Source: Thiomargarita sp. (GTDB lineage Bacteria; Pseudomonadota; Gammaproteobacteria; Beggiatoales; Beggiatoaceae). From it: a stretch of DNA of 36,351 bases. Below the pieces are notes generated by a model. The model did no database searches. It had not been told where the DNA came from and saw only the letters and a program-made list of their open reading frames with translations. The DNA lies in contig DYNN01000017.1 of the NCBI GenBank assembly GCA_020721045.1, forward strand, positions 1 to 36,351, written 5' to 3'. Shown here in pieces: positions 3,388 to 30,043 of this stretch (position 1 is the first letter of the stretch; each line of letters opens with the position of its first letter). The translations under genes and the position numbers were made by a program.

Positions 3388-6138
3388 ATGAGTAAAAAAT
3401 TTGTTTATTCTTTCAATGACGGTGATGGCAAAAACAAGCATTTATTAGGTGGTAAAGGGGCTAATTTATGTGAAATGACTCAAATTGGTCTAAATGTACC
3501 GCCAGGATTTGTTATCACTACAGAAGCTTGTTTGGCTTATCTTGATTCAAAAGCCTTGCCTGATGGATTAATGGATGCGGTTAAGCAACAAATTAAAGAA
3601 GTTGAACAAGCCTCTGGGCGCGGTTTTGGTGATCCCGAAAATCCGTTGCTGGTGTCTGTGCGTTCTGGTTCTGCGATGTCAATGCCGGGTATGATGGATA
3701 CTATTCTTAATTTGGGCTTGAATAAGGATACTATTAACGGTTTAATCAAACATACCAGTAATACTCGCTTTAGTTATGATGCTTACCGTCGTTTTGTCCA
3801 GTTATTTGGTAAAGTTGCTTTAGGTGTGCATGATGAAAAATTTGATGCTATTTTTGATGAAATTAAAAAGCGCACCGGTGTCACTGCAGATGTTGGTTTG
3901 GGGGCTACTGAGTTGAAAGAAGCTTATGAACGCTTTCTGCAAACCGTTAAAGAAGAAACTGGACGTGCATTCCCAGAAGACGTTTATGAACAATTAGAAA
4001 TCGCAATTAAGGCTGTGTTTAATTCATGGACAGGTAAACGCGCTATTGACTATCGTCGTGAATTTAATATCACGCCCGCAATGGCAAATGGTACAGCCGT
4101 CAATATTGTTGCTATGGTTTTTGGTAACATGGGTAATGATTGTGCGACTGGTGTTGGTTTTACCCGCGATCCGGGTACTGGTGAAAATAAAATGTACGGG
4201 GAATATTTGGTCAATGCGCAAGGTGAAGACGTGGTTGCCGGTATTCGTACTCCAAAACCGGTGCAAGAAATGGAAACAGAAATGCCAGAGATGTATAAGC
4301 AACTGGTTGATTTAAGAAATAAATTAGAATCACATTACCACGAAGTACAAGATTACGAATATACGATTGAAAAAGGTATTCTGTACTGTTTGCAAACCCG
4401 TAACGGTAAAATGAATGCCGCTGCCATGGTACGCACTTCTGTTGAAATGTTTAATGAAGGATTAATTGATAAACGACAATCTTTATTACGCGTTGATCCT
4501 AAACACTTGGAGCAATTACTACATCCGCGTTTAGACCCACATGGTACTATCCAACCGCTCGCACAAGGTTTGCCCGCTTCTCCGGGTGCCGCTTCTGGTC
4601 GATGTGTATTTGACGCTGATCAAGCTGAATTATCTGGTAAACACGGTGAAAAAGTGATTTTAGTCCGTGAAGAAACTAAACCAGAGGATATTCATGGTTT
4701 CTTTGCTGCACAAGGTATTTTAACCAGCCGCGGCGGTAAAACTTCTCACGCTGCTGTTGTTGCTCGTGGCATGGGTAAAGCCTGTGTTGCCGGTGCTGAA
4801 GGCATCAGTGTTGATACGCGTTTGCGTCAAGCGGTTGTGGGTGATGTCACTTTACGTGAAGGCGATATCATTACGATTGATGGTAGTACAGGTAATGTCT
4901 ATCTAGGTGAAATTCCTACGATTCCACCTAAGTTCTCAGAAGAATTAAAAACCTTGTTATCTTGGGCAGACAGTGCCGCACAATTGAAAGTGATGGCAAA
5001 TGTTGATACGCCTGAAGCCGCTGAAAAAGCAGTAGAATATGGTGCAATGGGGATTGGTTTATGTCGCACTGAGCGGATGTTTAATGCAGTTGATCGTTTA
5101 CCGATTGTGATTGACATGATTTTAGCGCGTACGCCAGTAGAACGCGAAGCCACATTACAACGTTTGTTACCGATTCAACGCCAAGATTTTAAAGAATTAT
5201 TTACTGTAATGTCGCCACGTCCAGTCACCGTGCGTTTGTTAGACCCGCCTATGCACGAATTCTTACCCACTGAACAGCAACTGATTGATGATATTGATGC
5301 TTTACGTCAATACCGTATTATTGTAAAAGGACGTGCCACCGCATTAAACACTATACACACGACTACGCCATTACCAGCACCTTTTAACGAAATTAGCGAA
5401 GAATTGGTCAATACTGCGATTTCTAAAAAAGAACAAATGTTGCGTAAAGTCCGTGAATTGTATGAAGTTAATCCTATGTTAGGACATCGGGGCGTACGTT
5501 TGGGTATTACCTATCCCGAGATTTACGCCATGCAAATTCAAGCAATTTTAGAAGCGGCTGCTGAATGTGTTAAGGAAGGTATTGAAGTGCATCCGGAAAT
5601 TATGGTGCCTCAAGTTATTACCTCGCAAGAATTGAAGCATGTCAATAAAACGGTAACGGTAATTCATCAAAGGGTGGAAAGTCAACATCGAGTTAAACTT
5701 AATTTCAAATTCGGTACGATGATTGAAACTGTACGCGCTTGTATGAGATCACCACGTTTAGCCGAAGTAGCAGAATTTTTCTCCTTTGGTACCAACGATT
5801 TAACGCAAGCAGCTTTCTCATTTTCTCGTGAAGATGCTGAAAATAAATTTTTGCCGTTATACAATGAATCTGGTATTTTGCAAGACAATCCCTTTGAAGT
5901 CCTAGATGTCAATGGTGTCGGTCGTTTAATGCAAATGACAGTTGAACATGGTAGAAAATCACGTCCTGGTTTAAAAGTGGGTATTTGTGGAGAGCAAGGC
6001 GGACATCCAGCTTCAATCCGTTTTTGCCATCATATTGATTTAGATTATGTTTCTTGTTCAGCACCGCGTGTACCTGTTGCACGTTTAGCCGCTGCTCAAG
6101 CTAAATTGTTGGAAGACAAATATTCTATTCCTGAATAA
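3388..6138 (+). CDS. ppdK: Pyruvate, phosphate dikinase
   Basis: This 916-residue enzyme interconverts pyruvate, ATP and Pi with phosphoenolpyruvate, AMP and PPi in the cytoplasm. The N-terminal ATP-grasp part opens with LLGGKGANLCEMTQIGLNVP. The phosphohistidine swivel domain has GGKTSHAAVVARGMG with catalytic His454. The C-terminal TIM barrel ends with GICGEQGGHP, where Cys867 is the active-site acid/base. The Clostridium symbiosum enzyme is 874 residues with His455 and Cys831, so the extra length lies between these sites, around IVKGRATALNTIHTTTPLP, just before the NPMLGHRGVRLG motif. The ATG is preceded by a good AGGAG. The gene is monocistronic, with a hairpin after the stop. It probably serves PEP formation or PPi-linked glycolysis, in keeping with the nearby acetate permease (inference). 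Confidence 0.97.
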   Translation: MSKKFVYSFNDGDGKNKHLLGGKGANLCEMTQIGLNVPPGFVITTEACLAYLDSKALPDGLMDAVKQQIKEVEQASGRGFGDPENPLLVSVRSGSAMSMPGMMDTILNLGLNKDTINGLIKHTSNTRFSYDAYRRFVQLFGKVALGVHDEKFDAIFDEIKKRTGVTADVGLGATELKEAYERFLQTVKEETGRAFPEDVYEQLEIAIKAVFNSWTGKRAIDYRREFNITPAMANGTAVNIVAMVFGNMGNDCATGVGFTRDPGTGENKMYGEYLVNAQGEDVVAGIRTPKPVQEMETEMPEMYKQLVDLRNKLESHYHEVQDYEYTIEKGILYCLQTRNGKMNAAAMVRTSVEMFNEGLIDKRQSLLRVDPKHLEQLLHPRLDPHGTIQPLAQGLPASPGAASGRCVFDADQAELSGKHGEKVILVREETKPEDIHGFFAAQGILTSRGGKTSHAAVVARGMGKACVAGAEGISVDTRLRQAVVGDVTLREGDIITIDGSTGNVYLGEIPTIPPKFSEELKTLLSWADSAAQLKVMANVDTPEAAEKAVEYGAMGIGLCRTERMFNAVDRLPIVIDMILARTPVEREATLQRLLPIQRQDFKELFTVMSPRPVTVRLLDPPMHEFLPTEQQLIDDIDALRQYRIIVKGRATALNTIHTTTPLPAPFNEISEELVNTAISKKEQMLRKVRELYEVNPMLGHRGVRLGITYPEIYAMQIQAILEAAAECVKEGIEVHPEIMVPQVITSQELKHVNKTVTVIHQRVESQHRVKLNFKFGTMIETVRACMRSPRLAEVAEFFSFGTNDLTQAAFSFSREDAENKFLPLYNESGILQDNPFEVLDVNGVGRLMQMTVEHGRKSRPGLKVGICGEQGGHPASIRFCHHIDLDYVSCSAPRVPVARLAAAQAKLLEDKYSIPE

Positions 6139-6807: not shown

Positions 6808-8636
6808 TAACTCACCAAATTTAATTTAAAGTGATAAATAATGAATTTCTTTAATTCGTTGACGATTTTTAAAGAATCTTTGAGTAAATCGCGTTCTAAT
6901 TTATTGAGTTGACTAGGAATAATAAAATTGTCGTAGGCTTCATTAACTTCAACTTTCTTCAACTCAAATTCTAAGCGCAAGGTAATCATAAAGGCTAATG
7001 CTTCAATCAATTCATGCCCGAAAGTTTTATCAAAAATACCCCTGTCAACCAACACTTTAATCCGTTCTATCGTACTGTTTTGTGGAATTTTATACTCTAA
7101 TGCTAAACTGCGTACACCGTGCACAATGGGAAAAATACCGCCTTTTTTAATATCTAATAAATGACCTTGTTGCGATTTTTTAACGATAAAATTAGCAAAC
7201 CAATTTAATGGGGTTTCAAATGCTAAAATCGGTTTAGCAAAATAGGAGAAAAAGGCTTGATTATCAGTTAATCGTTCAAACAAGTAATTTTTAGCCTCTT
7301 TAAGTAATTCAGGGTCTCCGGCGACCACTAAAGCATCACAAAAAATTGCCAAATTCATTAGCGGTTCTTTTGTATGCATAACCCATTGATAAATTTCATC
7401 TTTAAATTCTTTAAGTGATTTACACCAGTAAGCATTATTCACCATGATTTGACCCGAACAAGGCGGATAACCAAAGTCATTTAAAATATTGGTTAATTCT
7501 TGTGTAATGGTCGTTAAATTGTTTAAAGTGAAGCCGTCACGCAAAATAATTGCATTATCTTGATCGGTCTTTAGAATTTGTTCGCCTCGCCCTTCACTAC
7601 CCATCACTAATAGACAAGAATTTTTAATTAGTTCTGGTGGTGCGATTAAATCGTATAATTTCTTGAAAACTTGACGATTTAATTCGCTGACTAACTGCAT
7701 AATATAGCCGATTTTTACCCCTTTGGATTGCAGAGCTTGAATCATTTTGGTGAGATTTTGACTGGCTAATTTTAATTGTTCTGGCGTAGTCGCACGTTCA
7801 ATTTGTACAGCAACCAAACGGGTATGATTGGAAAAAAAGCTTAATAAATCAATCTGTTCTAATACACCATAAATGTCACCATTTGCACAAACGAGTAAAT
7901 GTTTAATATTGTGTTTGGTCATCAATAATAGAGCATGTAACAAAAAATCGTTAATATTCATGCTAATCAAATTATAGGTGGCGATATTATCTATACATTC
8001 ATCGATAGAATATCTTTCTAATACCACATGATCGCGTAAATCCTTATCAGTCACGATACCGATATTATCGTCTCGACGAATTAAAATAAAATTGGCTTTG
8101 TGATCACTCATGATTTTAACGGCATTAAAAACAGAAGTTTCTTTTTCTACCCATAAAGGCGGATGAATATAGGCATCACTGACTTTTGCCACCAGTAATG
8201 AAGCTAATTCTTTGCTGTTTCTCTGTTCAATAAGTTGATTAATGCGGGTGGAAAGATTTTGGTAATAAAACTCTTCAAAACGATTATTTTGTCGAATGAG
8301 GTCTAAAAATATCTTTTTGGGTAGTAAATAGCAGATGAGTTCTTCTTGAACGATAAAATTGTTTTTATTTTTTCCTTCTAATAATGCCATGGCATCAAAC
8401 GAATCTTGCGAGACATATAATGAGATGGTTTCATCATTTTTGTTATTTTCTTTAACTGCACCTTTAATAATAATATAGAGATGCTTGGGTGATTTTCCGC
8501 CTTGTACGATCAAGCATTCACCGGCTCTAAAATAGCCAATGTCCATAGATTGGGTGACAATGTCAAGTTCGTTGGAATCAAGTCGATCGAAAGGGGGAAT
8601 TTCTGAAATGAAACTGCGTTGTTCTAATAAACTCAA
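6807..8636 (-). CDS. cNMP-binding / CBS-pair / DUF294 nucleotidyltransferase signalling protein
   Basis: The 609-residue soluble protein has four parts: a Crp-like cyclic-nucleotide-binding fold (about residues 12-125), two CBS domains (about 155-270), a DUF294 nucleotidyltransferase-like domain (about 295-430) with GSEGRGEQ (346-353) and the acidic DQD pair (358-360), and a DUF294 C-terminal helical domain (about 470-605). The layout resembles GlnD-type transferases joined to ligand sensors, so a regulatory nucleotidylation role is likely; the target is unknown. The start is TTG at 8636-8634 with AGGA seven bases upstream; no ATG lies near the N-terminus. It follows actP on the same strand after an 83-bp gap holding an attenuator-like hairpin, which suggests its expression is set lower than, or separately from, the permease. 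Confidence 0.9.
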   Translation of the reverse strand: MSLLEQRSFISEIPPFDRLDSNELDIVTQSMDIGYFRAGECLIVQGGKSPKHLYIIIKGAVKENNKNDETISLYVSQDSFDAMALLEGKNKNNFIVQEELICYLLPKKIFLDLIRQNNRFEEFYYQNLSTRINQLIEQRNSKELASLLVAKVSDAYIHPPLWVEKETSVFNAVKIMSDHKANFILIRRDDNIGIVTDKDLRDHVVLERYSIDECIDNIATYNLISMNINDFLLHALLLMTKHNIKHLLVCANGDIYGVLEQIDLLSFFSNHTRLVAVQIERATTPEQLKLASQNLTKMIQALQSKGVKIGYIMQLVSELNRQVFKKLYDLIAPPELIKNSCLLVMGSEGRGEQILKTDQDNAIILRDGFTLNNLTTITQELTNILNDFGYPPCSGQIMVNNAYWCKSLKEFKDEIYQWVMHTKEPLMNLAIFCDALVVAGDPELLKEAKNYLFERLTDNQAFFSYFAKPILAFETPLNWFANFIVKKSQQGHLLDIKKGGIFPIVHGVRSLALEYKIPQNSTIERIKVLVDRGIFDKTFGHELIEALAFMITLRLEFELKKVEVNEAYDNFIIPSQLNKLERDLLKDSLKIVNELKKFIIYHFKLNLVS

Positions 8637-11119: not shown

Positions 11120-11148
11120 TTGACACTATAAATCAATAGTTATAGAAT
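11120..11148 (+). promoter_or_regulatory. Sigma-70 promoter of tRNA-Arg
   Basis: A consensus -35 TTGACA (11120-11125) and -10 TAGAAT (11143-11148) are separated by 17 bp. The predicted start, near 11155, leaves about 25 nt of leader before the mature tRNA. Confidence 0.85.
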
Positions 11149-11179
11149 AACTAATTCAATGTAGAAATTTCTAAAATTT

Positions 11180-11257
<78 letters not shown>

Positions 11258-23759: not shown

Positions 23760-24389
23760 TTATTTAGCATTATCTTCTGTTGTAGCAGCGGCTTCATCAT
23801 CTTGACCACCACGTGCTATATGCACAGAAACAACGGGTAAATCATGTTCTGAATCGCCATGTGATAATGCAACTAATTCAACACCTTCTGGCAATTTCAA
23901 ATCAGATAAGTGGATAGTATGACCCAGTTGCACATTGGTTAAATCAACTTCAATAAATTCAGGCAAATCTTTAGCTAAACAAAGAATTTCGATTTCCATC
24001 ATTTGTTTGGAAATAGTTCCACCTCCTTGTTTTACGCCAACACAGATGCTTTCATTAAGGAAGTGCAAAGGGATATGCATATGGAGTTTTTCGGTTTCGC
24101 TAACTCTTTGAAAATCAGCATGTAACAATGTTGGATGATAGGGATGACGCTGTAAATCTTTAAGTACAGCTTTCTCTGCCTGCCCATTCACTTTGAGGGT
24201 TAATACATGTGAATAAAATGATTCGTGCTTCAGATGCTTCATCATTTCATTGTGTGATAAGTTCAGAGAAACCGGCTCTTTGCCCCCACCGTATAATATG
24301 CCGGGCATGACACCTGTGCGACGTAGGCGGCGGCTCGCACCTTTCCCCATATCTGTACGCAAGGTTGCATCCAATTCAAAATTTTCCAT
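23760..24389 (-). CDS. rplY: 50S ribosomal protein L25 (bL25, CTC/TL5 type)
   Basis: The 209-residue protein has the 5S-rRNA-binding N-terminal domain (GASRRLRRTGVMPGILYGGG, then HADFQRV) and the extra C-terminal beta domain of the general stress protein CTC/TL5 form, ending in an acidic tail. GGAG lies 11 bases before the ATG. Its leader is strongly structured. The prs and ispE genes often found upstream are absent; a miniature transposon-like element and fdhA lie there instead. Confidence 0.96.
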   Translation of the reverse strand: MENFELDATLRTDMGKGASRRLRRTGVMPGILYGGGKEPVSLNLSHNEMMKHLKHESFYSHVLTLKVNGQAEKAVLKDLQRHPYHPTLLHADFQRVSETEKLHMHIPLHFLNESICVGVKQGGGTISKQMMEIEILCLAKDLPEFIEVDLTNVQLGHTIHLSDLKLPEGVELVALSHGDSEHDLPVVSVHIARGGQDDEAAATTEDNAK

Positions 24390-24689: not shown

Positions 24690-27536
24690 TCAAACCATAT
24701 AAACTTTACACAACGTAATTTTATTAGCAGGTACGCCAGTTACGGGTTCATAACCATAATTGACTAAGTGATTACAGGCTTCTCCCAAGGCATAAGGCTC
24801 AGTATTTTCTGGATAGTGTGAATGTAAATTTTTACCTTGCCAATAACCACTAAATTGAAATGGCATAAACACAATTCCAGCTTTAACACGTTGAGTTTCA
24901 ATAACTTTAGCCTGTATTTTGTGTCCGTTGGTCGACTCAACCCATACAGTTTTTCCAGCTTGTACGCCATAATTATTGATATCTATCGGATTCATTTCAA
25001 TAAATACAGTGGGTTGTAATTCTGCTAACCAAGGATTTGCCCGACTTTCATCACCACTACCTTGATACTCTGCCAAACATCCTGTTGTCATGGTTAAAGG
25101 ATAATCTTTTGTATAATCAATTTGTTGAATCGATTCATAGCGCGTGGGTAAGCGAAATAAAGAAGGATAATCCGAGTAAGTGGGATATTTTTTCACCAAA
25201 TCGCGCTGATTTGAATATAACGGTTCACGATGTACCGGTACTGGATCAGGAAAATGCCACACGACACAACGGGCTTTAGCATTACCCGATGGCACACAAC
25301 CATGTTGAATCGCAACTCGTTGAATACCACCAGATAAATCTGTTTGCCAATCTTTATCTTGGGCTAGTTTTTTCTCAGCAGCAGTCAATTCATTCCACCA
25401 GCCCTGTTGTTTCAAATACTCTGCTGAAAAGCTGTCATAACCGGTCTGAATTTCAGAATCTTTGGAATAATTGTTTTCAGCCAATAAGTTATCACCTTCA
25501 TACTCACTACCAAATTTTGCTTGAAAACTAGAGCCGCCATGCATCACTGATTTTGAAGTATCATATAAAATTGGAGTACCCGGATGTTTCAACTCGGGTG
25601 TACCCCAACAGGGAGCAGGTAAACCGTAAATTTCACCATCGATTTCAGTACCTTGTGCTTGCAAAGCGGTGCTGTTAAAAACACCCCAATTTTTTTGATG
25701 TAATTTTAATCTTTCAGGACTTTGACCCGTATAACCAATAGACCACATACCTTTATTAATTTCACGGGTAATATCTTCAATCACGGGCTCATCGTTATTC
25801 ACTTGCATTTGCTGACATAACTGTTGCGAAAATCCTAATGACTTAGCTAACTTATACATAATCACATGATCGGGTAAAGCTTCAAATAAAGGGGTTATAA
25901 CTTGATCGCGCCATTGAATAGAGCGATTAACCGCAGTGACAGAGCCATAAGTTTCAAATTGTGTACAAGCCGGCAATAAATAAACGTTATCCGTACGTTC
26001 CGATAAAATAGCCGCTTCATTCACATAACTATCGACAACAACAACTAAATTTAACGCATCTAATGCTTTTTTAATTTCTATACCACGACTATGTGTATTC
26101 GGTGAGTGTCCCCAAAAAAAAGCTGCTTTTAAATTATCTTGTTGATTTAAAACTTCTTTATTTTCAAGCACGCCATCCATCCAGCGAGAAGCAGGAATAC
26201 CACTGGCATGCATCATAGAGACAGAATTCATTGTAGAATCAGTCACTTTGCTCATAGAAAAGCGCGCACTCAACCATTCATAATCAATATCCCACACTGT
26301 AGCCCAATGTTTCCAAGCAGATTCTGTTAAACCGTAATAACCTGGCAAGGTGTCAGCAGATAAACCTAAATCTGTTGCACCTTGTAAATTATCATGTAAA
26401 TGAAGGAGATGAATCCCGCCACCTGTCACACCGATATTGCCTAAAGCCAATTGAAGAATACAATATGCTCGGGTGTAATTAACGCTATTTTCGTGTTGTG
26501 TGGCTCCCAAAGCCCATAATATGGCACCCGGCCGGTTATCTGCTAATAATTGGGCAATTTTTTTCACTTCATTTTCAGCAACACCAGTGACTTTTTCCAC
26601 TTCTGTTGGCGACCATTTGGCAACTTCAGTGCGAATTTCTGCCATGCCATAAACACGTTGTTGAATAAAAGTTTCATCTTCCCATTTATTTTCAAATAGA
26701 TGCCATAATACGCCCCAAATTAATGCAACATCACTACCCGGACGCAGTTGTACAAAATGATCAGCATGAGCAGCCGTTCTGGTAAAACGTGGATCAGCTA
26801 CAATTAACTGCGCACCTCGTTCTTTCGCTCGAAAAATATGCTGCATAGCAACCGGACTCGATTCAGCCGGATTGCTGCCTATAATTAAAATAGCTTTGCT
26901 ATGATGAATATCATTGTAAGAGTTAGTTGCAGCACCAATACCCCAAGTTTCACTGACACCGGCGACGGTTGAAGCGTGGTAAAGACGGGCTTGTTGATCT
27001 ACATTATTGGTGCCCCATAATGCGGCTAATTTGCGATATAAGTAGGCTTGTTCATTGCTAAATTTTGCTGAACCTAACCAATAAACACTGTCAGGACCGC
27101 TTGCATCACGAATAGTTAATAACTGTTGACTAATTTCTTTAATCGCTTGATCCCACGAAACTTTTTTCCATTGTCCCGCTTGCAATTTTAAGGGATATTT
27201 TAAACGTTTTGTGTCTTGACCATAGTGACGCAAACTGGCACCGCGCGCACAATAACTACCTAAATTAAAAGGATGATCAAATGCCGGTTCTTGTCCCACC
27301 CATATTCCATTTTCAACTTCAGCAATTACTCCACAACCCATTGAACAATCAGTACAAATCGTGCGTACGGTTTTAATTTCATTTTTTACTTCATCGTCTG
27401 CTTGTACTTTTTTAACTAAACCGGGCGCGACACCAGTCAGCGCAGTTAATCCGCCAATAGATATTGTTGAACGTTTCAAAAAAGTACGACGATCAATGTG
27501 TTTATCTTTGGTTATATTTAGCTTGCTTATTTTCAT
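24690..27536 (-). CDS. fdhA: Formate dehydrogenase-type molybdopterin oxidoreductase, alpha subunit (Tyr at the metal-ligand site)
   Basis: The 948-residue protein has a Tat signal (RRTFLKR, Arg16-Arg17), a [4Fe-4S] motif Cys61-x2-Cys64-x3-Cys68 with Cys96, and a C-terminal molybdopterin-dinucleotide domain. Stretches such as LALGNIGVTGGG, NRSIQWRDQV and GYTGQSPERLK place it with the periplasmic FdhA of Shewanella and Campylobacter. The active-site arginine is Arg356 (VNYTRAY) and the active-site His is present. However, the residue that is selenocysteine or cysteine in E. coli FdnG (QARVUHGPTV) is Tyr186 here (QARLYHASTV, codon TAC 26979-26981). I chose ATG 27536 because AAGGA lies seven bases upstream; an in-frame TTG at 27584 has none. 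No beta or gamma subunit follows. Formate oxidation is therefore uncertain. Confidence 0.88.
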   Translation of the reverse strand: MKISKLNITKDKHIDRRTFLKRSTISIGGLTALTGVAPGLVKKVQADDEVKNEIKTVRTICTDCSMGCGVIAEVENGIWVGQEPAFDHPFNLGSYCARGASLRHYGQDTKRLKYPLKLQAGQWKKVSWDQAIKEISQQLLTIRDASGPDSVYWLGSAKFSNEQAYLYRKLAALWGTNNVDQQARLYHASTVAGVSETWGIGAATNSYNDIHHSKAILIIGSNPAESSPVAMQHIFRAKERGAQLIVADPRFTRTAAHADHFVQLRPGSDVALIWGVLWHLFENKWEDETFIQQRVYGMAEIRTEVAKWSPTEVEKVTGVAENEVKKIAQLLADNRPGAILWALGATQHENSVNYTRAYCILQLALGNIGVTGGGIHLLHLHDNLQGATDLGLSADTLPGYYGLTESAWKHWATVWDIDYEWLSARFSMSKVTDSTMNSVSMMHASGIPASRWMDGVLENKEVLNQQDNLKAAFFWGHSPNTHSRGIEIKKALDALNLVVVVDSYVNEAAILSERTDNVYLLPACTQFETYGSVTAVNRSIQWRDQVITPLFEALPDHVIMYKLAKSLGFSQQLCQQMQVNNDEPVIEDITREINKGMWSIGYTGQSPERLKLHQKNWGVFNSTALQAQGTEIDGEIYGLPAPCWGTPELKHPGTPILYDTSKSVMHGGSSFQAKFGSEYEGDNLLAENNYSKDSEIQTGYDSFSAEYLKQQGWWNELTAAEKKLAQDKDWQTDLSGGIQRVAIQHGCVPSGNAKARCVVWHFPDPVPVHREPLYSNQRDLVKKYPTYSDYPSLFRLPTRYESIQQIDYTKDYPLTMTTGCLAEYQGSGDESRANPWLAELQPTVFIEMNPIDINNYGVQAGKTVWVESTNGHKIQAKVIETQRVKAGIVFMPFQFSGYWQGKNLHSHYPENTEPYALGEACNHLVNYGYEPVTGVPANKITLCKVYMV

Positions 27537-27587: not shown

Positions 27588-27773
27588 TTATGAATCAACC
27601 AAGGTATCATAATAAGCACGTATATGGTCAGTTACGTGGTAACCATTGGTTTGCACCGTTTGAGCAGGTTGTTCTTCGGCAATCAGTGTCTGCGGCAAAG
27701 TCACTGCCACTGTTGTTGCTGCCCCTAATAAACTGATTTTCTTGATGAATAATCGTCTTTCTAAAGTGGACAT
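27588..27773 (-). CDS. Formate dehydrogenase region Tat-target protein (FdhX-like)
   Basis: The 61-residue protein has a twin-arginine start (ERRLFIKKISLLGAATTVAV) followed by a short exported tail (YHVTDHIRAYYDTLVDS). Small proteins with exactly this layout precede fdhA in many gamma- and epsilonproteobacteria and are catalogued as formate-dehydrogenase-region Tat targets; their role is not settled. GAGG lies ten bases before the ATG at 27773. An upstream in-frame ATG at 27791 is less well placed. It lies 51 bp before fdhA and is probably cotranscribed. Confidence 0.85.
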   Translation of the reverse strand: MSTLERRLFIKKISLLGAATTVAVTLPQTLIAEEQPAQTVQTNGYHVTDHIRAYYDTLVDS

Positions 27774-28120: not shown

Positions 28121-28729
28121 ATGTTGAGCTATCTCTTTAATAAATTTGAAGAAATGCTGATTGCTTTTTTATTAGCAGCGATGACCTTAATTACTTTTGC
28201 GCAAGTTGTTACCCGTTATTTAAACAGCAAATTTTGGGCATCTGATTATGGTGTTGAATTATTAGAAAAATTTCCGGCATTACATCTATTTGCTGATTTT
28301 CATATGGTGTGGGCACTTGAAGTCACACAATACTTATTTGCATGGTTAGTGCTTTTAGGCATGTCTTATGGAGTTAAAGTGGGGGCACACATTGGGATTG
28401 ACTCGTTTACCCGTTTATTTACTGAAAAATGGCAGAAAATCTTTGCCATCTTAGCAGCTTCACTATGTATTGTGTATTGTATAATTTTATTTATTGGCGG
28501 CAGTCAATACGTTTATAAAATTTATCAAATTGGTATTCAAACAGAAAATTTACCGATTAAACAATGGATTCCATATAGCGTTTTGCCAATTGGTTTATTA
28601 TTACTTGCTTTTCGTTTTATTCAAGTAATAGTGAAAATTATACAAGGCAATAAAGTCACTTTATTAGCAGATGAAGCCCGTGATGCTATTGAAGAACATT
28701 TAAAACCAGAGTCTGACATAAAAAAATAA
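28121..28729 (+). CDS. dctQ: TRAP transporter small permease (DctQ)
   Basis: The 202-residue inner-membrane protein has four membrane segments. The family motif is LEVTQYLFAWLVLLGMSYGVKVGAHIGID, with conserved Gly, Ala and His. It pairs with DctM to import organic acids using the sodium gradient and a periplasmic binding protein. No dctP binding-protein gene lies beside it, so the substrate cannot be guessed from the binding protein. It lies 12 bp before dctM. Confidence 0.95.
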   Translation: MLSYLFNKFEEMLIAFLLAAMTLITFAQVVTRYLNSKFWASDYGVELLEKFPALHLFADFHMVWALEVTQYLFAWLVLLGMSYGVKVGAHIGIDSFTRLFTEKWQKIFAILAASLCIVYCIILFIGGSQYVYKIYQIGIQTENLPIKQWIPYSVLPIGLLLLAFRFIQVIVKIIQGNKVTLLADEARDAIEEHLKPESDIKK

Positions 28730-28741
28730 GGATATCTAATC

Positions 28742-30043
28742 ATGACCACTTTGTTTTTATTTGGATTATTATTCATTTTAATGTTAATCGGTGTACCGAT
28801 CGCCATTGCGCTGGGTTTGTCTAGCGTGTTGACTATCTTATTCTTCTCTAATGATTCTTTGGCTTCTTTGTCGCTAAAATTATTTCAAGGCATGGAACAC
28901 TACACCTTGATAGCAATTCCCTTTTTCATTTTATCCGCAGCTTTTTTATCAACGGGTGGTGTTGCGCAACGAATTATCCGCTTTGCCATTGCTTGCGTGG
29001 GTTCTTTGCGTGGTGGATTAGCCATGTCTTCAGTGTTGGCTTGTATGTTATTTGCCGCTGTATCCGGTTCTTCACCTGCCACTGTGGTTGCTATTGGTTC
29101 TATCGTGATTGCCGGCATGGTTTCTAGCGGTTATAGCAAAGAATTTGCCGCTGGCGTTGTGGGTAGCGCGGGCACATTAGGCATTTTAATTCCACCGTCT
29201 ATCGTTATGGTTGTCTATTGTGCAATTACTGAGGTTTCAGTTGGGCGTATGTTTATTGCGGGTGTTATTCCCGGATTATTAGCAGGCTTCATGTTAATGC
29301 TAGGAATTTACTTCTTTGCGCGCAAACATAATTTACCAAAAATGCAACCCGCTTCTTTAACTGAAGTATTTTCAGCCGGTCGTGATGCAATTTGGGGATT
29401 AATGTTGGTTTTCATTGTATTAGGTGGAATTTATGGCGGCATTTTCACGCCTACAGAAGCCGCTGCCGTTGCAGCAGTCTATGCTTTTATCATTGCGTTA
29501 TTTGTTTACCGTGATTTAAAATTTAGAGAAGTGCCAAAAATATTAACTGATTCAGGTAAGATCACGATTATGCTGATGTTTATTATTGCTAATGCGATGT
29601 TATTTGGACATGTATTAACAACAGAACAAATTCCACAGCATATTACAGAAATTATTACTCACTGGGGTATGCCAGCTTGGGTATTTTTGATTGTAGTCAA
29701 TGTGTTATTATTAATTGGCGGTAGTTTTATGGAACCTTCTGGCTTATTATTAATTTTAGCTCCCATTTTATTTCCCATTGCCATACAATTAGGGATTGAT
29801 CCAATACATTTAGGCATCATTATGGTTGTTAATATGGAAATTGGCATGATTACGCCACCGGTAGGACTTAATTTATTCGTTTTAGTCGGTATTAGTAGCA
29901 ATACGTCCTATGAAATGAGCTTGATGGGTGCGGTGAAAGCAATTTTACCTTGGCTTTTGATTTTATTAATCTTTTTAATAATAATTACTTATATACCAGC
30001 GATCAGCTTATTCTTACCAAATTTATTTTTTCCAGAATCTTAA
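28742..30043 (+). CDS. dctM: TRAP transporter large permease (DctM)
   Basis: The 433-residue protein has about 12 membrane segments and typical DctM motifs: GVPIAIALGLSS, AIPFFILSAAFL, AAVSGSSPATVVAIGSI, GTLGILIPPSIVMVVY and MEIGMITPPVGLNLFV. It forms the transport channel with DctQ. The stop overlaps the next start (TAATG), so the stress-protein gene is probably coupled. Confidence 0.96.
   Translation: MTTLFLFGLLFILMLIGVPIAIALGLSSVLTILFFSNDSLASLSLKLFQGMEHYTLIAIPFFILSAAFLSTGGVAQRIIRFAIACVGSLRGGLAMSSVLACMLFAAVSGSSPATVVAIGSIVIAGMVSSGYSKEFAAGVVGSAGTLGILIPPSIVMVVYCAITEVSVGRMFIAGVIPGLLAGFMLMLGIYFFARKHNLPKMQPASLTEVFSAGRDAIWGLMLVFIVLGGIYGGIFTPTEAAAVAAVYAFIIALFVYRDLKFREVPKILTDSGKITIMLMFIIANAMLFGHVLTTEQIPQHITEIITHWGMPAWVFLIVVNVLLLIGGSFMEPSGLLLILAPILFPIAIQLGIDPIHLGIIMVVNMEIGMITPPVGLNLFVLVGISSNTSYEMSLMGAVKAILPWLLILLIFLIIITYIPAISLFLPNLFFPES

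Follow-up and report, generated by a model that had tools for sequence, protein, structure and literature searches.

We identified, in a 36,351-bp contig of a Thiomargarita sp. genome (the window, i.e., the whole stretch of DNA analyzed here), an uninterrupted gene for a formate dehydrogenase catalytic subunit (FdhA-like protein) in which, judged by alignment, the protein ligand of the molybdenum or tungsten (Mo/W) atom, the substrate arginine, and a conserved lysine are replaced, while the catalytic histidine is kept. This protein is very probably no longer an ordinary formate dehydrogenase; on balance, we read the complex to which it belongs as one that has been retired from formate chemistry and is kept under selection in a membrane redox complex. 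The chemistry open to a bis(molybdopterin guanine dinucleotide) (bis-MGD) site is believed to be determined by its protein ligand and sulfido group. In this case evolution has apparently stripped a formate dehydrogenase of its thiolate, of the substrate arginine and the conserved lysine, and perhaps of the sulfuration factor as well, with fold, clusters, and partners kept; the protein is a natural test of how necessary each of these residues is, and possibly represents a new type of ligand. Annotation by similarity would call it a formate dehydrogenase, wrongly crediting the organism with formate oxidation.

Replaced residues in the FdhA-like protein

The window is one contig (C126) of a 3.39-Mb assembly comprising 253 contigs and estimated to be 99.92% complete. 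The fdhA-like frame (27536..24693, minus strand) is open over 948 codons, is followed by a stop codon at 24690-24692, and encodes a protein with a twin-arginine signal (RRTFLKRS) and with Pfam Fe4S4, molybdopterin, and dinucleotide-binding domains. The protein is of the periplasmic type, close to Shewanella oneidensis FdhAB (9vap, the closest solved structure). It is an orthologue of the periplasmic FDH3-type catalytic subunit and is placed in the tree with three orthologues from its own taxonomic family (SH-aLRT support 94). Its score against the NCBIfam alpha-subunit model TIGR01591 (433 bits) is below the cut-off of 666, as is that of the Cys-containing orthologue of relative G010 (476 bits). 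The features of the gene are as follows:

24690..27536, minus strand: fdhA-like gene, molybdopterin subunit, 948 aa, stop codon included
27249..27356, minus strand: [4Fe-4S] stretch with Cys61, Cys64, Cys68, and Cys96, all retained
27243..27245, minus strand: Arg98 (CGC), in a conserved Lys column between the iron-sulfur (FeS) cluster and the pterin; FdhF Lys44 equivalent
26979..26981, minus strand: Tyr186 (TAC), in the Mo/W-ligand column; FdhF Sec140 equivalent
26976..26978, minus strand: His187 (CAC), the retained catalytic His; FdhF His141 equivalent
26856..26858, minus strand: Ser227 (AGT), in an invariant His column
26484..26486, minus strand: Ser351 (AGC), in an invariant Gly column
26400..26402, minus strand: His379 (CAT), in the substrate-arginine column; FdhF Arg333 equivalent
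26397..26399, minus strand: Leu380 (TTA), in an invariant Gly column; FdhF Gly334 equivalent
25077..25079, minus strand: Cys820 (TGT), new in a column that is invariantly Arg in orthologues

The protein was compared with 52 orthologue rows (54-62% identity to the window protein; some genomes supplied two rows) and with a distant set of 21 homologues (alignment A2). An earlier note on this DNA had reported Tyr186 in place of the selenocysteine (Sec) or cysteine that ligates Mo/W, and had proposed aligning this column with homologues. The alignment bears the report out: column 186 holds Cys in all 51 lettered rows (one row has a gap), in three further orthologue rows (L121-L123; 54/54 lettered rows in total), and in 21/21 distant homologues. 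The usual ligand is thus lost in an intact gene. Tyr186 lies in the context NVDQQARLYHASTV...GIGAATNSYND, and the GAATN motif, which the earlier note had also singled out, does depart from the orthologues, with Ala in a column that is otherwise Met (46/51) or Gln (5/51). The four FeS cysteines and His187 are present as claimed, His187 being shared by 51/51 orthologues.

The oddity is real but had been underestimated, as the active site has lost more residues than was recognized, and one residue had been misread. Arg356, which had been listed among the residues that remain, is indeed present and conserved (52/52 orthologues), but it is not the catalytic arginine; Arg333 of E. coli FdhF aligns with His379, in a column that is Arg in 52/52 orthologues. 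The window protein also carries Leu for Gly at column 380 (52/52), Arg for Lys at column 98 (50/50), Ser for His at column 227 (52/52), Ser for Gly at column 351 (52/52 orthologues and 20/21 distant homologues), and Cys at column 820, where orthologues have Arg without exception. Relative to E. coli FdhF (1aa6/1fdo), it shares the fold, the FeS motif, and the His141 equivalent (His187), but Lys44, Sec140, Arg333, and Gly334 correspond to Arg98, Tyr186, His379, and Leu380; FdhF residue numbers were counted by hand along the alignments, and nearness to the metal is argued from this residue correspondence, not from distances. Arg is also found at the Lys44 site in two other members of the protein family in this genome (on C160 and C185; crude alignment). 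A change from Met to Leu at position 343 was rejected as a catalytic loss because E. coli FdhN likewise has Leu there.

The window protein breaks 42 of the 261 columns that are otherwise invariant in the 52-row set, including Lys98, Arg379, and Gly380; the single G-to-A change that had been offered as an explanation does not account for this pattern. By comparison, individual tests of 31 of the other 52 rows, a subset without L055, gave 0-5 broken columns each. In a 26-row set the window protein breaks 46/293 invariant columns, followed by L055 (30/320) and L045 (13/306); the partial rows L050 and L052 were excluded from this test and from the tree.

Published work bears on several of these positions. 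FdhF K44R is reported to retain ~7% of activity, with a formate Michaelis constant raised ~32-fold and cluster occupancy lowered by only 4.5% (PMC12176258), and PMC11134731 assigns catalytic relevance to a second-sphere His and Arg. Protein ligands named in the portions of PMC6650914 and PMC9370002 drawn on here are Asp, Ser, Cys, and Sec; Tyr is absent from the ligands named in that portion of PMC6650914, the word tyrosine is absent from both papers, and a full-text literature search on tyrosine ligation of molybdenum gave no paper.

No second intact fdhA was found in the assembly: PF00384 had seven matches in six genes, the window gene included, and the runner-up to the window protein in a search of its own genome was 27% identical, so that this candidate was rejected. 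Closer relatives were not found in the collection, in which the genus is represented by this one genome; an orthologue was present in 3 of 41 other genomes of the taxonomic family. Among plasmid records, 97 match the window protein, and the 40 matches listed are all below 60% identity.

Fold, partner genes, and selection

A predicted model of the FdhA-like protein (59-row alignment, pLDDT 85.5) matches 9vap with a Z score of 49.8 and a root-mean-square deviation of 1.6 over 883 residues (Foldseek TM 0.92/0.97), although the model may lean towards the canonical fold because the alignment contains canonical orthologues; a first model (23 rows, pLDDT 60) was discarded. Identity to S. oneidensis MR-1 SoFdhAB is 57-58%, but this protein has ARICHST, HCAKGA, and FRGHDN where the window protein has ARLYHAS, YCARGA, and LHLHDN. 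We defined 81 deeply conserved columns as those invariant in 37 orthologues and common to at least 60% of the 21 distant homologues; the window protein keeps 69 and changes 12 of these, while the distant homologues, which themselves helped to define the columns, keep 52-76 (median 72). NuoG from the same genome, used as a control, kept 36/73, and three other members of the protein family kept 38-43 of 73-77; as NuoG was not separable from these three, it was rejected as a yardstick for subunits free of the Mo cofactor (Moco).

The operon is broken after fdhA. Gene order was compared over open reading frames of >55 codons, assigned by eye and by alignments. In relatives G015 and G010 the order is a TorD-like gene, a twin-arginine translocation (TAT) miniprotein gene (fdhX), fdhA, fdhB, a small lipoprotein gene, and fdhC; G019 has the same order, except that its fdhC is short and no lipoprotein gene is listed, while G049 and G044 have fdhA, fdhB, and fdhC, with the TorD-like gene in G049 only. 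The window has fdhX and fdhA and then a ribosomal protein gene:

27588..27773, minus strand: fdhX-like TAT miniprotein gene, 61 aa, upstream of fdhA (TIGR02811)
23760..24389, minus strand: ribosomal protein L25/Ctc gene, directly downstream of fdhA, at the position of fdhB in relatives

The miniprotein scores 47 bits against TIGR02811 (cut-off 48.45), and its G010 counterpart 43.3 bits. The partner genes lie on other contigs: fdhB is on C222, upstream of a small lipoprotein gene whose product resembles that of the relatives by eye and has no family match, while fdhC and the TorD-like gene are on C220 and C35, each among unrelated genes. The fdhB gene starts 140 bases from its contig start, and no fdhA tail was found in these 140 bases. 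FdhB (316 bits; FDH3_beta cut-off 240) and FdhC (150.7 bits; TIGR01583 cut-off 115.85) were recognized by their family models, and FdhB, FdhC, and the TorD-like protein are 75%, 49%, and 48% identical, respectively, to their G010 counterparts. FdhB keeps 16/16 Cys that are invariant in five relatives, and FdhC keeps 6/7 His that are invariant in four relatives (the truncated G019 sequence excluded); the seventh His column holds Pro, in an alignment-shifted stretch adjoining a His.

Three subunits of the complex have changed faster than in relatives. The FdhA branch of the window genome is 0.63, compared with 0.11, 0.16, and 0.20 in the three members of its taxonomic family, although the branch of L055 is also long (0.56), and both branch length and amino-acid composition of the window protein were flagged in tree building. 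In six-row trees the window genome has branches of 0.47 for FdhA (0.11-0.16 in the three family members), 0.35 for FdhB (0.08-0.10), and 0.93 for FdhC (0.26-0.34), while LigA is not accelerated (0.38 vs. 0.22-0.59). If the genes were unselected, ~32 nonsense changes would be expected in fdhA and 20 in fdhC, and none was seen; for fdhB the expectation of three is uninformative. At the 5% level, at most ~9% (fdhA) and ~15% (fdhC) of the divergence can have been unselected, with the stop expectation taken from a simple simulation with an assumed base bias.

The sulfido ligand of FdhF requires FdhD (PMC6239281; PMC12140954), and FdhF produced without FdhD is reported to be inactive until chemical sulfuration (PMC6239281). 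No FdhD (PF02634) match was found in the 99.92%-complete Thiomargarita genome, while a match was found in 7/8 relatives checked, including 5/5 with an FdhA orthologue (G010, G015, G019, G044, and G049), and in 37/42 further genomes with an FdhA orthologue (42/47 in total; the ligand column was read in 34 of the 47). The loss of FdhD fits a loss of formate chemistry and falls short of proof.

Alternative readings of the altered site

FdhA would be exported by TAT, would assemble with FdhB and FdhC, and would allow electrons to be exchanged between the complex and the quinone pool. With less certainty, bis-MGD may be bound, its metal carrying an oxygen donor (the Tyr186 phenolate, or water or oxo without a protein ligand), and the site may use a substrate different from formate. 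If bis-MGD is bound, a metal with an oxygen donor, or with no protein ligand at all, and without a sulfido group inserted by FdhD would point to non-formate chemistry. Chances are about even that the window protein is still a catalytic bis-MGD enzyme, and this is favored over the possibility, which we rate clearly lower, that it is an electron wire. The more specific proposal that the Tyr186 phenolate (or no protein ligand) sits on Mo/W without the FdhD sulfido group, and that a non-formate substrate feeds the old FdhB/FdhC chain, is tentative. Oxygen-donor ligands are found in the Asp- and Ser-ligated bis-MGD oxidoreductases (dimethyl sulfoxide reductase types II and III; PMC6650914), although these have no close sequence kinship to the window protein.

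TorD-like chaperones are of the type that assists cofactor insertion, and NuoG is a molybdopterin-type subunit without the Mo cofactor. If bis-MGD is not bound or not used, the window protein would be comparable to NuoG, QrcB, and ActB, with the fold and the FeS cluster serving as an electron wire; this is a minority possibility. The loss of the metal ligand, the change of 12/81 deeply conserved columns, and the retention of all FeS cysteines of FdhA and FdhB agree with such reuse in an electron-transfer complex, for which ActB and QrcB, tabulated without a Mo cofactor (PMC8076601), are precedents. However, these proteins are distant in sequence (the NCBIfam QrcB model gave 91 bits, cut-off 440), the other 69 deeply conserved columns are kept with a NuoG control that is not decisive, and the TorD-like chaperone gene is kept. 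A rather unlikely explanation is that the gene is in decay, i.e., that formate use stopped, fdhD was lost, the operon was split, and fdhA is drifting with no stop codon yet; the broken operon, the lack of an FdhD match, the faster FdhA, FdhB, and FdhC, and the many broken invariant columns would all be expected, but the absence of stop codons in fdhA and fdhC and the retained Cys of FdhB and His of FdhC argue against it. It is highly improbable that the protein has remained a formate dehydrogenase in which a different residue, such as the new Cys820 at an otherwise invariant Arg column, or no residue serves as ligand; His187, the FeS cysteines, the partners, and the predicted fold are retained, but the substrate Arg and the conserved Lys are lost, no FdhD match was found, FdhF is nearly inactive with K44R alone (PMC12176258), and the translation has no Cys between residues 96 and 359. 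A single-base sequencing or assembly error in an ordinary formate dehydrogenase has a negligible probability: although only one assembly is at hand, separate changes affect the Lys98, Arg379, Gly380, and His227 columns and dozens more in an open frame, and a single wrong base is rejected because 42/261 invariant columns differ.

Several observations weigh against a complex retired from formate chemistry and kept under selection. The variant is carried by one genome among those searched, in one assembly. The faster change of FdhA, FdhB, and FdhC is equally expected under relaxed constraint, and no relative was close enough for estimation of nonsynonymous to synonymous substitution ratios. The six-row trees are small, with some poorly supported forks and a truncated G019 FdhC; rows from outside the taxonomic family also have sizable branches (0.23-0.28 for FdhB and 0.55-1.16 for FdhC), and the TorD-like protein shows no acceleration (0.61 vs. 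0.31-0.61, five rows). Further changed, deeply conserved columns (Trp641, Arg820, Ala853, His894, Asp930, and Glu937) would fit cofactor loss as well. The absence of FdhD is weak evidence on its own because five genomes without an FdhD match carry an FdhA with Cys and Arg (L124 in G133, L117 in G163, L121 in G195, L123 in G253, and L122 in G305), with the Lys column kept in the four that cover this position; G133 and G253 belong to one genus and G195 and G305 to another. These five genomes may use a different route of sulfuration or encode an FdhD that has diverged, and the use of FdhD as a strict marker was weakened accordingly (5/47 orthologue genomes).

Other observations at related loci

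Two homologues from Desulfobacterales metagenome-assembled genomes (L057:3293-4219 and L058:6001-6816) have TGA, in frame, as the codon of the ligand column (YLEHQARI*HSATV), presumably encoding Sec. The G019 fdhC frame (L070:9410-10159) ends early relative to other relatives, at 249 aa, possibly due to a frameshift or an assembly error. A repeat of ~100 bp with 93-96% identity is present at the start of C220 (L088:1-101) and in six places on C35, where four of the six copies are close together (L089 near 4921-5030, 7975-8451, and 11126-11234). Within the window, genes for the tripartite ATP-independent periplasmic (TRAP) transporter proteins DctQ and DctM (28121-30040) are divergent from fdhX.

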